A stretch of 37,998 nt of DNA, taken from positions 1 through 37,998 of IMG/VR virus record IMGVR_UViG_3300043436_004263; one strand, given 5' to 3'. Source of the stretch: a virus. This document shows positions 9,531 through 19,819 of this stretch, one piece after another; positions within the stretch are counted from its first letter, which is position 1; each line of letters opens with the position of its first letter. Below the pieces are notes generated by a model. That model saw only the letters and a program-made list of their open reading frames with translations. It had not been told where the DNA came from and searched no databases. Both the position numbers and the translations under genes were made by a program.

Positions 9531-11542
9531 ATATAAGGTTTATCATAGATGGATCTGATAGAGGTCAACCACTAAATCCTAATGACTTTTCAATTAATAT
9601 TAATGAAGAGATTTCTATTAATACAAGAATAACATCGTTCAATAATGATCTATTATTTAGCGGCGATATATTTAGTTATTTATATAATAAATTAAAAATA
9701 GGTGATGCTTGTTCATTATCTGAAGTCGTCGTCCAGTATTATTGTGGAAATAGTTGGAAAGAATTAGTTAGAGGTTATTTTGTAATATCAGAATGTATAT
9801 TCGATTTAGAAAAATGTTTTGTAAAAACTAAATTATACGATCGAATATTCTCTACTAAAATAAATAATAACAAAGCAATTAAATTCTCAACGGCAGCAAC
9901 TGTTACAAAGAATTTAGTGCCGACAATTCCAGCTAGGGTAATTATGGCTGAAGTATTTAATCCAGCAAATGGTTTGTATTTTACTGAAAAAGCAAATGTT
10001 AGTAGCGTATTTGAAGTATTTAAACACCTAATTAATTGCATGAGTGATGGATTAGTTGATTTTGCTTCAACATTCTTTTTTAATAAAGGAGAAAATGTTT
10101 CTCCATTACCTAAATTTGATGGTTTATTTATTTCAAATGGTAAATCATTATCTACTAAATCTAATAATGAAACAATGATTTCATTTCAAGATTTATTTAA
10201 CGCATTAAATAAAAAATATAGATTAGGAATTGGATTTGAAATTCAAACAAATGGTAGACCATTATTACGAATTGAAGAAGCCGAATATTTCTTTGAACAA
10301 AATAGTAATTTATATTTTATTGATCAACCGAATATAACAATGCAATTCGAAACTGCTGAATTATATTCTGCAATTAATGTTGGTTGTAGTGAATTTTATA
10401 ATCAATATGAATGCAATAATGGAAGTGGTGGTTGTCAATTCGCACAATTAACATATTATGGATTTAGAGATGAAACATTTGGACTAATAGGTGAATGCAA
10501 TACCGGTGTTACATTAGAGGTAGTATCTAATGAAGTTATATTTGATCCTAATATAATTGAAGATTGTGTTAGATTTGGAAATGAATCATTTAATGATAAT
10601 CCAATTTTAATTATTTGTCAATATTCAAGATTATTTGCGCCAATAACATATTTTGCTAGGGCACAAAAATTTGATCCTTATAATATTGGACAAACAATTT
10701 ATAATGGCACATTAAATAACGAAAATGTATTATCTAATTGGATTAATGGTTATCCGCAATCAGTATATAATTATATTTCTGGATTTCCACCTGCATCAAC
10801 AGTTGTTACAGCATTTCTTAGTCCACCTCCATTACAAACATTTGGGATAATTAATTCTGAATATACAAGGTTTAGCGAGTTTTTTGGATATTATATTATT
10901 TGGGGCCAAACAACAAATGATCCAGGAAGCAACTTTATTAATGGAAGAGATTATATAGTTCCATATAATGGAATATATACTGTGCAATTAATTTTATTAG
11001 CGTATTGCGATGGTGGCATAGCAAATGGGGCAGCAATAATAAATCATAGGAGTCCATCAGGAAATACTTATAATGATTATTCAACACCTTATCAATTATT
11101 TGATAATAACCAAGGAGTTGGACAACCGGTTTTTACATTGAATGTATCATTTGTGGCTCAAGCACAAGATCGGATTTCAATTGATTTTATTGCAATTGTG
11201 ACTAATACAACTAATGCCAATGTAGTTATTGATAATTTTAATTCATTTCAATCTAATCCACAAAATCAATTATCATTTTTATCAATTAGCGGTCAACCAT
11301 TGCAACCAACGGTTTTACAACCATACGATCCTAATGATTATAAGAAATTTGTTTATAAATTTACACGCAAATTAACAATGGATGAAATTACAACTGTGAT
11401 TAATAATCCATCATTACCAATATTTTTAAATTATAGAGATGATAATTTTTCTACGATAAAAACATATATTAAAAATATTGATGTAAAATCAATTGTTACA
11501 CAATCTGCTGATGTCCAATTAAAATCAAATCAAGTATTATAA
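9521..11542 (+). CDS. Large tail protein, probable distal tail/baseplate hub component (673 aa)
   Basis: Begins MAIDIRFIIDGSDRGQPLNP, a strand-rich N-terminal domain like those of distal tail or hub proteins. The early part reads like a tail hub (SINTRITSFNNDLLFSGDIF; VRGYFVISECIFDLEKCFVK). The later half (residues about 400-640) has a beta-rich, Asn/Tyr/Gln-rich composition, with a segment resembling a C1q/jelly-roll (NGIYTVQLILLAYCDGGIAN). It directly follows the tape measure (overlap of 10 bases) and ends overlapping the next tail gene. Exact role inferred from order; no catalytic motif seen. Confidence 0.6.
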   Translation: MAIDIRFIIDGSDRGQPLNPNDFSININEEISINTRITSFNNDLLFSGDIFSYLYNKLKIGDACSLSEVVVQYYCGNSWKELVRGYFVISECIFDLEKCFVKTKLYDRIFSTKINNNKAIKFSTAATVTKNLVPTIPARVIMAEVFNPANGLYFTEKANVSSVFEVFKHLINCMSDGLVDFASTFFFNKGENVSPLPKFDGLFISNGKSLSTKSNNETMISFQDLFNALNKKYRLGIGFEIQTNGRPLLRIEEAEYFFEQNSNLYFIDQPNITMQFETAELYSAINVGCSEFYNQYECNNGSGGCQFAQLTYYGFRDETFGLIGECNTGVTLEVVSNEVIFDPNIIEDCVRFGNESFNDNPILIICQYSRLFAPITYFARAQKFDPYNIGQTIYNGTLNNENVLSNWINGYPQSVYNYISGFPPASTVVTAFLSPPPLQTFGIINSEYTRFSEFFGYYIIWGQTTNDPGSNFINGRDYIVPYNGIYTVQLILLAYCDGGIANGAAIINHRSPSGNTYNDYSTPYQLFDNNQGVGQPVFTLNVSFVAQAQDRISIDFIAIVTNTTNANVVIDNFNSFQSNPQNQLSFLSISGQPLQPTVLQPYDPNDYKKFVYKFTRKLTMDEITTVINNPSLPIFLNYRDDNFSTIKTYIKNIDVKSIVTQSADVQLKSNQVL

Positions 11543-13179
11543 TGAGCTACGAATCAATTCCAAATCAACCATTAATATTTAGCGAAATAATTGAAGAAGG
11601 TTGCCCAGGTTGCAATTCTGAATTTGTTCAATTAGCGGATTTTAATGATCAATTATTTTATCAAATAGAAACTACTATTTGCGAAGATATTTATTTAAAA
11701 TTTTATCAAGAGCAGTCTGTTGGTAATTGGTTTATTAATGGTTCATTTATTGGAAAAGCAGTTCCTGATAACGGAATATATAGCAAGCAATATTATAGAA
11801 ATGATTTATCAGTAGTATTTAAATTAAATATTACAATATTGACAATTGAAGGTGAATTAAAATGCCAAATGACAATGGGCACTTTTCAATTATTTAATTC
11901 GCCAGGTAATTATGAATTTTATTTATCCACTAATAGTGGAAGTAATTTAGTAGCATTTAATTTTAGCGGATTAACATTTGCTGGCGAATTTATAATTAAT
12001 TCAATAGAGATAATTCCAACTAATGCATTATTTACTGGATTAGTTGATCCTGAAACACTTACGCCTATTATTAGATTTAATCCAACATTAATTAGAAATA
12101 ATCAATATTTAACTGCTGCAATTAATTTAGCTGATTATGAAATTCCAGAGGGTTGTTATCGTTTGGCTTATGCTGATTATTGTAATAATATATGCGCACA
12201 ATATCATTTAAATAATCCATTATTCGTTGATGATAATGGATTATCATGGACCTCAACACCTATATTTGGTTCAGCAAATTGGGATTATTCATTTAATTAT
12301 GCTGAAATATTATTTAATTTTGGTTTACCACAAGGCCAAACATTATTAACTAATTCAATTGAATTATGTACTGATGTAGAATATTCTGTTACAATTGTTG
12401 TAAATCAAATAAATGATGCAACATTACAATGCCAAATAGGTAGTCAATTATTATTTCCAATAATAACTACTCCAGGAACATATCAATTTAATGTTATTCC
12501 GACCGGATTAAATAATTTCCCATCATTATTAGCTACAGATGATGCTGATCCTAGTGTTCGTGGCTATGTTCAAGTGTCTAAATTTGATGTTAGAATGTTT
12601 AAAGAATGGGCTATTTATGATAAATATTCACCAATAATTAAAGTTGGAGAATATAATGATGAATGTAAATTTTTTAAAATAGAAGGTTGTAATGCCGAAA
12701 ATCAATTCGGTCTTGGATTTAGTGGCACTTCATTTTTACCTGGAATTAGATTAGAAGGAAGGAAATTTAGAGCACAATATTTAGCCGATATTGAATTATT
12801 TAAATATTCATCAGGAAAAACAGTAACGGCTTTTTATGATAGAAAAAAGAAATGGACATTTAATTTTGGTCGTTTGCCGGAGTACGTTTTAGATTTTCTA
12901 AGTATAATATTTTATTTTGATAATTGCTATATTAATGGCGAATTATATGCGCCATCTGAAGATCAATTTCCAGATATAGAATATAATGACGCAGATAATT
13001 TAGGTGATTTATCAATTGATTTAATTAATAAAAATGAAAGAATTAAAAAATCAATATGTTCAGCATCAGATGCTAATTGTTTACCAACCATATTGGATAT
13101 TAACGATGAGCCATTTTTATTGAGCCAATTTGAAGATAGATTAATTACTCAATCTAATATTAATTTATATCAAGAATAA
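11542..13179 (+). CDS. Large tail/baseplate protein of unknown subtype (545 aa)
   Basis: A beta-rich, Cys-containing protein starting MSYESIPNQPLIFSEIIEEG, then CPGCNSEF. It contains two similar segments with carbohydrate-binding-module-like strands (NWFINGSFIGK... and TLQCQIGSQLLFPI...), suggesting duplicated jelly-roll domains that could contact host surface sugars. The C-terminal part (GRKFRAQYLADIELFKYSSG) is more globular. The stop codon is followed by the promoter of the tail tube gene. The tail location is well supported by its neighbours; adhesion is inferred. Confidence 0.5.
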   Translation: MSYESIPNQPLIFSEIIEEGCPGCNSEFVQLADFNDQLFYQIETTICEDIYLKFYQEQSVGNWFINGSFIGKAVPDNGIYSKQYYRNDLSVVFKLNITILTIEGELKCQMTMGTFQLFNSPGNYEFYLSTNSGSNLVAFNFSGLTFAGEFIINSIEIIPTNALFTGLVDPETLTPIIRFNPTLIRNNQYLTAAINLADYEIPEGCYRLAYADYCNNICAQYHLNNPLFVDDNGLSWTSTPIFGSANWDYSFNYAEILFNFGLPQGQTLLTNSIELCTDVEYSVTIVVNQINDATLQCQIGSQLLFPIITTPGTYQFNVIPTGLNNFPSLLATDDADPSVRGYVQVSKFDVRMFKEWAIYDKYSPIIKVGEYNDECKFFKIEGCNAENQFGLGFSGTSFLPGIRLEGRKFRAQYLADIELFKYSSGKTVTAFYDRKKKWTFNFGRLPEYVLDFLSIIFYFDNCYINGELYAPSEDQFPDIEYNDADNLGDLSIDLINKNERIKKSICSASDANCLPTILDINDEPFLLSQFEDRLITQSNINLYQE

Positions 13180-18478: not shown

Positions 18479-18502
18479 TTTAATTAAATATTTTAATTAA
18501 TT

Positions 18503-18536
18503 AAAAGCTCGATTAATTCGGGCTTTTATTTTTTAA
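18503..18536 (+). terminator. Intrinsic terminator after the portal-scaffold operon
   Basis: AAAAGCTCGA and TCGGGCTTTT pair over 10 bp with one G-T wobble around the loop TTAAT, then ATTTTTT. It separates the portal-scaffold operon from the capsid gene. Confidence 0.85.
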
Positions 18537-18551
18537 TTTAAAATAAAAAAT

Positions 18552-18559
18552 TATTTTTG
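18552..18559 (+). promoter_or_regulatory. -7 promoter element of the major capsid gene
   Basis: TATTTTTG followed by TAA fits TAnnTTTG and precedes an untranslated leader of about 100 bases in front of the capsid gene. Confidence 0.55.
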
Positions 18560-18607
18560 TAATGCATTAGAGTACATAGTAGTTTGGCGAAACTTTAAAC
18601 GCATTTG

Positions 18608-18639
18608 TAGGTCTAAATTTACTAAACCTAAATTAGTAA
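18608..18639 (+). other. Possible pseudoknot in the capsid mRNA leader
   Basis: TAGGT (18608-18612) can pair with ACCTA (18626-18630). TTACTAA (18619-18625), in the loop, can pair with TTAGTAA (18633-18639). The two stems are arranged as an H-type pseudoknot with a 6-base first loop and a 2-base last loop. The short last loop makes the simultaneous fold uncertain; either hairpin alone is also possible. Confidence 0.35.
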
Positions 18640-18664
18640 TATAACCAAATAAATATTTTTAAAA

Positions 18665-19708
18665 ATGCCTATTTCTTCGATTTTGAGCGAATGTCCTAAT
18701 ATACAAATGGCGCTCAGTGAATTATTTATGGAAGTTGGTCAACGTGAATCGTTGCCTTTTATCGAATTTTTAAATTCGCCTGAAAATGTGAAAATGATTA
18801 AACAAGAAATTTCACCAGGTGGAGGAAAATTAAAAACAGTTGAAGCTCGTTGGATCCAACGTCTACCTGAAACTGTTGTAGAAGAAGGTGAAGATATTCT
18901 CACTTGTACATCAACTAATACCTACGGTGATACAACCACAACGTATACATTAGAATCTTCAGATACGTATATCGCTAGTCAATTAATTAAAGCTGATGAA
19001 ATTGCTCGTCATTGCCAAGCAAATAATGTTTACATTATGGAGGCAATTATGCGATTAATGAATGCGATGGATCGTAAAATTAATTCAGTCGCCGCTACTC
19101 AAGCCGTTGCCGGTATTGGGAATTGGGGTACTGATGTTGAAGATTTCTACACTGTAACTGGTGATTGTCTTACAATTGCTACAATGAATGGGGACACAGA
19201 ACCAAACCCATTTGCCTTGGCTGATATAACTCAGGCGACGCGTATGGCTAATTATCCTGGAGCTCCAATTGCATTTGGTGGACCAGCAATGCAGCGTTAT
19301 GCAAATGCGGTGCAAGCTGGTTGTTGCACCCAATACGGAATTGATTTAGCTACAATTACCGCGCAGAATGGCTTTGGATTCGCTTACGATGCTCGTGTTG
19401 CTGAAGCATTGGGAAGTGTTAATAAAGCGCTTGTAACAACACCAGGTGCAATACAGTGGTTATCGTATAATTTAGCTGGATGGAATGCAAATATGCAACC
19501 AATTGCCGGAGCTAATTATACTAAAACACAAGTAATTACTCCATCTGGCGTTCCGTGCGATTTAACATTAAAAGATGATTGCGGTAATTTATCAGTTGTA
19601 TTAACTACAGTTGGTAAAGTAATTACATTGCCATCAACGATTTATCAAGCTGAAGATAAATATGCAGGTGTTAATTATGTTAACTGTGTGACTATTGTAA
19701 ACCCGTAG
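18665..19708 (+). CDS. Major capsid protein
   Basis: A 347-aa protein forming its own transcription unit, with a promoter, a long structured leader and a terminator. Codon use is richer in G and C than in its neighbours, as for a highly expressed gene. It follows the scaffold, and the segments MRLMNAMDRKINSVAATQAV (a long spine-like helix) and ANYPGAPIAFGGPAMQRYAN suit an HK97-type fold of the Bacteroidota phage type without a cleaved delta domain. The stop codon TAG directly follows the heptamer AAACCCG, and a -1 shift would add 26 residues. Confidence 0.8.
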   Translation: MPISSILSECPNIQMALSELFMEVGQRESLPFIEFLNSPENVKMIKQEISPGGGKLKTVEARWIQRLPETVVEEGEDILTCTSTNTYGDTTTTYTLESSDTYIASQLIKADEIARHCQANNVYIMEAIMRLMNAMDRKINSVAATQAVAGIGNWGTDVEDFYTVTGDCLTIATMNGDTEPNPFALADITQATRMANYPGAPIAFGGPAMQRYANAVQAGCCTQYGIDLATITAQNGFGFAYDARVAEALGSVNKALVTTPGAIQWLSYNLAGWNANMQPIAGANYTKTQVITPSGVPCDLTLKDDCGNLSVVLTTVGKVITLPSTIYQAEDKYAGVNYVNCVTIVNP

Positions 19709-19785
19709 AGGGCTCGCAATTTTTATTATCACAAAGTGATGAAGAATTGTTGAGCCAACTAGGTGACAATTTAGTGTCGGAATAA
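19697..19785 (+). CDS. Predicted -1 frameshift extension of the major capsid protein
   Basis: In the -1 frame after AAACCCG (19699-19705) the reading continues through the 0-frame stop for 26 more codons: VEGSQFLLSQ, then SDEELLSQLGDNLVSE, ending at TAA 19783-19785, two bases before the terminator stem. The product would be a minor 373-aa capsid form with an acidic amphipathic tail, comparable in principle to T7 gp10B. The frame has no start codon of its own, so translation needs frameshifting. Confidence 0.6.
19699..19756 (+). promoter_or_regulatory. -1 programmed frameshift signal (slippery heptamer, stop codon, stem-loop)
   Basis: The heptamer A AAC CCG is in the correct phase (GTA AAC CCG TAG) and has the XXXYYYZ form. 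The 0-frame stop TAG follows at once. After a 5-base spacer, GGCTC (19711-19715) pairs with GAGCC (19752-19756), CAATTTTT (19717-19724) with AAGAATTG (19742-19749, one G-T), and ATCAC with GTGAT around an AAA loop (19728-19740). Confidence 0.65.
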
Positions 19786-19787
19786 TT

Positions 19788-19819
19788 AAATAGGGGATTA
19801 ATGTCCCCTATTTTTTTTT
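19788..19819 (+). terminator. Intrinsic terminator after the capsid gene
   Basis: AAATAGGGGA and TCCCCTATTT pair perfectly over 10 bp around TTAATG and are followed by a run of T's. It begins two bases after the stop of the frameshift extension. Confidence 0.9.

Follow-up and report, generated by a model that had tools for sequence, protein, structure and literature searches.

The 3′ end of the major capsid protein gene of an uncultured phage very probably carries a programmed −1 ribosomal frameshift signal, by which a minority of capsid subunits would receive a short acidic tail; of the explanations weighed below, this is the best. The signal lies in IMG/VR record IMGVR_UViG_3300043436_004263, positions 1 to 37,998 of which were analyzed as one stretch of 37,998 nucleotides (hereafter, the window). 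Comparison with relatives shows conservation of the slip site, of the hairpin that follows it and of the −1 frame as protein-coding sequence, and couples the slip site to the presence of the extension.

The capsid gene and the elements at its end

The 347-aa product of the 0-frame is predicted to be a major capsid protein of the HK97 fold. This assignment draws on gene order, with terminase (3847) and portal (14442) genes upstream, and on a moderate-confidence AlphaFold2 model computed with 26 relatives as input (mean pLDDT 62, pTM 0.62), of which, given that pLDDT, the overall fold alone was used; its matches in the PDB and in BFVD, a collection of predicted viral structures, are HK97-fold capsid proteins. 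Searches of PHROG and Pfam with the capsid protein returned no family match, tblastn found no capsid relatives in annotated phages, and a search of prokaryote genomes likewise found none. The distant matches of the portal belong mostly to phages of Bacteroides, Parabacteroides, Alistipes, Croceibacter and Polaribacter, which suggests that the host is probably a member of the Bacteroidota.

A sequence-only reading of the window had described the gene as ending in GTA AAC CCG TAG, and this is borne out to the base: the heptamer stands in the X XXY YYZ phase, the 0-frame stop follows it immediately, and a hairpin is predicted 5 nt past it (Table 1). The remaining particulars of that description hold as well, namely a −1 frame open for 26 codons (GTA GAG GGC ... 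GAA, then TAA at 19783–19785), a gap of two bases between this stop and the terminator stem, and an extension that is short and acidic, its 26 residues (VEGSQFLLSQSDEELLSQLGDNLVSE) including not a single basic one. The predicted trans-frame tryptic peptide of the long capsid form is YAGVNYVNCVTIVNPVEGSQFLLSQSDEELLSQLGDNLVSE, and the matching C-terminal peptide of the short (0-frame) form is YAGVNYVNCVTIVNP.

Table 1. Positions of the capsid gene, the candidate recoding elements and related features in the window
Feature	Position	Strand	Remarks
In-frame C-terminal module of the 545-aa protein (11542–13179), EPFLLSQFEDRLITQSNINLYQE	13108–13176	+	resembles the capsid extension
Terminator upstream of the capsid gene	18502–18528	+	aligned in L001
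Predicted major capsid protein gene, 0-frame product 347 aa	18665–19708	+	HK97-fold model match, gene order
Slippery heptamer A AAC CCG	19699–19705	+	A AAC CCR in 102/108 extension-bearing relatives
−1 frame extension, 26 codons + TAA	19705–19785	+	
0-frame stop TAG	19706–19708	+	in relatives, TAA/TAG adjacent, or one codon later with the full heptamer kept
Spacer, 5 nt	19706–19710	+	5 nt in 43/76 distinct sequences; mostly 3–6 nt otherwise
Predicted stimulatory hairpin, 20 pairs, −20.5 kcal/mol	19711–19756	+	
Intrinsic terminator right behind the extension stop	19788–19813	+	

The extension has no match in Pfam or PHROG, and a profile of it found nothing meaningful among PDB sequences. A sub-threshold resemblance of the hairpin/terminator region to the Rfam family sraA (E 0.057, half the gathering score) is taken as chance, and transcriptional slippage is unlikely at a site that has no long run of A or T.

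Coupling of slip site and extension among relatives

Searches with portal and with capsid alignments gave 145 distinct capsid genes, all metagenomic. A homologous extension is found in the −1 frame in 108 of them, in frame 0 behind TGA in six and in the +1 frame in one (L081), and 30 have none. Wherever the −1 extension is present the slip site is present too, since all 108 genes carry CCC-R in phase at the capsid end, 102 of them as A AAC CCR. Homologues that keep the capsid C terminus and lack both the heptamer and an open −1 frame had been named in advance as evidence against a frameshift; what is found in the family is that the extension is lost along with the heptamer, which is absent from 28 of the 30 extension-less genes. 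In the nearest relative, L001 (85% nucleotide identity around the site), the heptamer, the frame and the stop are all conserved. Two capsid genes, those of L019 and L049, end in A AAC CCR and a stop with no extension behind, perhaps through a recent loss of the tail.

The heptamer is conserved beyond what the encoded amino acids need, as a Val-Asn-Pro end does not force the choice of codons. Among genes that end in Val/Ala/Thr-Asn-Pro, xxA AAC CCR is used in 86 of 86 extension genomes versus 2 of 19 extension-less or other genomes, where the codon usage of these genes would give about 10% (0.32 × 0.64 × 0.49). On an unrooted capsid tree, built without the C-terminus and with two truncated rows left out, the extension state changes about 15 times; of eight independent pairs with support, 6–7 have the heptamer changing along with the extension and none has it changing in the opposite sense (sign test, median p 0.016). 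Judged by this tree, heptamer and extension are gained or lost together. The deepest branches all have the −1 form, so that this form is probably ancestral and repeatedly lost, as far as an unrooted tree can show.

Conservation of the hairpin and of the −1 reading frame

Because no gaps are needed to align the first 18 codons of the extension, the RNA test is independent of any structure-guided alignment. RNAalifold, applied to such a gapless alignment of 37 sequences, returns five pairs, every one with compensatory changes (one of them is C-G in 14 sequences and G-C in 14). The hairpin as a whole has 109 double-change cells versus 49 ± 5.5 in shuffles, and its covariation score is 0.399 versus 0.208 ± 0.015 in shuffles, which ignore relatedness, and at most 0.28 in slid versions, which take it in. 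When the stem is compared to synonymous recodings of the same peptides, the mean z is −4.1, with p ≤ 0.01 in 95% of 76 distinct sequences; the hairpin of the window lies 3.7 s.d. below the recodings of its own peptide. A structure with compensatory change is found 5 nt past the heptamer in the window and in most relatives, where a programmed −1 signal would have it about 5–9 nt away, and the retention of pairing through such changes indicates that the stem is maintained by evolution. L056, which has the extension and no stable hairpin in the fold, is a clear exception, and the sequences of the L069 clade fold in another register.

The −1 frame evolves as a protein under purifying selection, as judged from 38 non-overlapping pairs of sequences: 0.52 of its changed codons are synonymous versus 0.27 under random scatter, and no stop is created versus 11 expected. 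The length of the extension is 25–28 codons in 92 genes. These observations bear on the possibility, which we regard as very improbable, that the −1 frame is an untranslated leftover, the remains of an ancestral capsid gene that was longer and lost its end to a frameshift mutation. Absence of the extension from about one-fifth of the capsid family, and hence its dispensability in some phages, would agree with a leftover; however, selection without a single stop, constancy of length, compensatory changes in the hairpin and the −1 state of all deep tree branches argue against it, and none of the 145 capsid genes is a plain in-frame fusion.

A separate small protein, started in the −1 frame by reinitiation or internal initiation, is a shade less credible still. 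Twelve of 92 genes do have an ATG or GTG within the first 12 codons of the −1 frame, and Bacteroidota seldom depend on a Shine-Dalgarno motif, but the other 80 have neither codon there, conservation starts exactly at the slip site, and initiation needs neither AAACCC-R nor a hairpin. Just as hard to sustain is a hairpin that acts only as an RNA regulatory element (terminator, attenuator or stability element) with the open frame as its by-product: strong conservation of the hairpin and the terminator directly after it would suit such a role, but the intrinsic terminator is distinct from the hairpin and is also retained in genomes that lack the extension, and coding selection goes on 3′ of the hairpin (synonymous fraction 0.53 versus 0.25 expected), where the structure of the hairpin cannot explain it. 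Programmed frameshifting, as proposed from the window at the outset, is the reading that slip-site coupling, compensatory stem changes and purifying selection in the −1 frame support.

Proposed mechanism of recoding

We infer the occurrence of the shift, its efficiency, the incorporation of the long form into virions and the role of the tail. Most ribosomes would terminate at TAG and yield the 347-aa capsid protein; some, when the hairpin sits at the mRNA entrance, would slip back by one base, read GTA GAG ... and produce a 373-aa form with the 26-residue acidic tail. Co-assembly of the two forms would then place the tail on a minority of subunits. The slip itself may take either of two routes, a tandem shift of tRNA-Asn and tRNA-Pro from AAC CCG to AAA CCC on the heptamer, or a shift of the P-site tRNA-Pro alone, CCG to CCC, with the stop codon occupying the A site. 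Both routes are suggested by the way in which stop position and completeness of the heptamer fit together: in the six genomes without AAA (CCC only) the stop always comes directly after CCG, and all six genomes whose stop lies one codon further on retain the complete heptamer, CCC-R being the invariant core of the site. A AAC CCG is not known to rank with the strongest slip sites of bacteria, and the efficiency of the shift could therefore be low.

Probable readthrough in one clade

In six relatives (L030, L031, L036, L047, L190 and L199), and not in the window, the homologous extension continues frame 0 immediately past a UGA that the standard code reads as a stop; these are the only members of the family whose capsid genes end in TGA. 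Recoding of UGA as Trp is ruled out in the four of these genomes that were checked, where about half of the remaining genes stop at TGA and are not read through. Compared with the other members of the clade, L199 has 3–6 synonymous and 3–5 non-synonymous codon changes and no stop in frame 0, and stops acquired in both other frames. A hairpin is predicted just past the TGA in the genomes of this clade. Although the data are few, UGA readthrough has likely replaced the −1 frameshift in the six. The minor coat form A1 of Q-beta arises from a leaky UGA, like the readthrough proposed here, but Q-beta is an RNA phage with a long extension, and the likeness is not one of common descent.

At L081:14377-15420 and following, AAC TCG TAA is succeeded by the extension in the +1 (or −2) frame, and a hairpin is present; this is either another recoding mode or an assembly indel.

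A related motif at the end of a probable tail-tip adhesin

When a profile of the extension was run over ~59,000 six-frame fragments of the loci, its matches in long ORFs were mainly C-termini of one family, to which the 545-aa protein of the window belongs (Table 1). The best non-extension match has an E-value of 3.4e-5, and most are weak singly, but they fall at one place in this one family. Nearly all homologues of the 545-aa protein with a complete C-terminus end in the motif, in frame, even where the capsid is without it; a tblastn search for the tail motif in phages found none. There is a hint that the extension resembles the 545-aa module of its own genome (p = 0.001 by permutation, a value that ignores relatedness and is driven by a few deep clades). 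In a deep clade made up of L069, L171 and L173 the capsid extension uses an FQDG-type repeat rather than LLxQ, and the 545-aa protein of L069 ends likewise. The presence of FQDG in both proteins hints that the two motifs evolve together.

The model of the 545-aa protein (pLDDT 80) contains beta-sandwich domains like those of carbohydrate-binding modules, its matches including a hyaluronan-binding module (Z 13.3, 131 residues, rmsd 3.1) and CBM16 and CBM4 (Z 11–12). The central fibre of mycobacteriophage Douge is matched domain by domain only (Z 10.3–10.4, 216–218 residues, rmsd ~15). Taken with a position upstream of the portal, these predicted domains and the likeness to the Douge fibre suggest that the 545-aa protein is a probable tail-tip adhesin. 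As the same type of repeat ends both this protein and the capsid extension, the capsid tail probably serves as a short motif for docking or adhesion; the surface-interaction role that had been considered for the tag thus receives indirect support from its resemblance to the 545-aa C-terminus.

Relation to known capsid recoding systems

Frameshift-derived minor capsid forms are a long-established feature of T7. Capsid frameshifting is described for T7, T3, A2, A118 and A500 (−1) and for PSA (+1), often adds Ig-like domains, and such Ig-like extensions have been noted to be indifferent to the type of shift (PMC5009743). In T7 gp10A/gp10B and T3 gene 10, as proposed for the window, a −1 shift where the capsid gene ends gives a longer minor form, which in their case is in the virion; T7, however, has a G GU-type site with a far-downstream stimulator, and the domain added in T3 is Ig-like (PMC5009743), compared with an A AAC CCR site, a hairpin at a distance of 5 nt and a 26-residue repeat-like module here. 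Lactobacillus phage A2 and Listeria phages A118 and A500 likewise pair a −1 shift in the capsid gene with a minor extended form, but the A2 extension is Ig-like (PMC5009743) and the hosts also differ; a title that PMC10885494 cites describes the second capsid form of A2 as an essential component. The extension of the window is too short, at 26 residues, for an Ig fold and has no Pfam match, and no annotated phage capsid came up in tblastn as a sequence relative of the capsid protein. The cps and tsh genes of Listeria phage PSA slip on proline CCC, in tsh just ahead of a stop, but by +1 and not −1, and Orsay virus also extends its capsid by a frameshift but is an unrelated animal RNA virus (PMC5009743).

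New here are the A AAC CCR site, a short repeat module common to the capsid and a tail-tip-like protein, and an apparent switch of recoding mode. The chances seem to us evenly balanced that a single principle underlies the family: the same tail, akin to the 545-aa C-terminus, would be added at low stoichiometry by interchangeable recoding (ancestrally by −1 frameshifting, by UGA readthrough in one clade and possibly by another shift in L081, with repeated loss), and selection would keep a minority of tagged subunits, with one docking or adhesion motif common to head and tail tip. The family amounts to a natural experiment of more than 100 wild genomes that have retained slip site, hairpin and tail, have lost them jointly or seem to use UGA readthrough instead. 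With this variation, and with a second protein whose in-frame C-terminus bears a similar motif, the function of a low-copy tag on the capsid becomes open to test. Ordinary gene calling misses the predicted long capsid form in this family.

Transcriptional setting of the capsid gene

Flanked by two terminators (Table 1), the capsid gene probably forms a transcription unit by itself. Between the upstream terminator and the capsid start, a leader of ~135 bases (18529–18664), most of it alignable in L001, is a possible promoter or 5′ UTR element.
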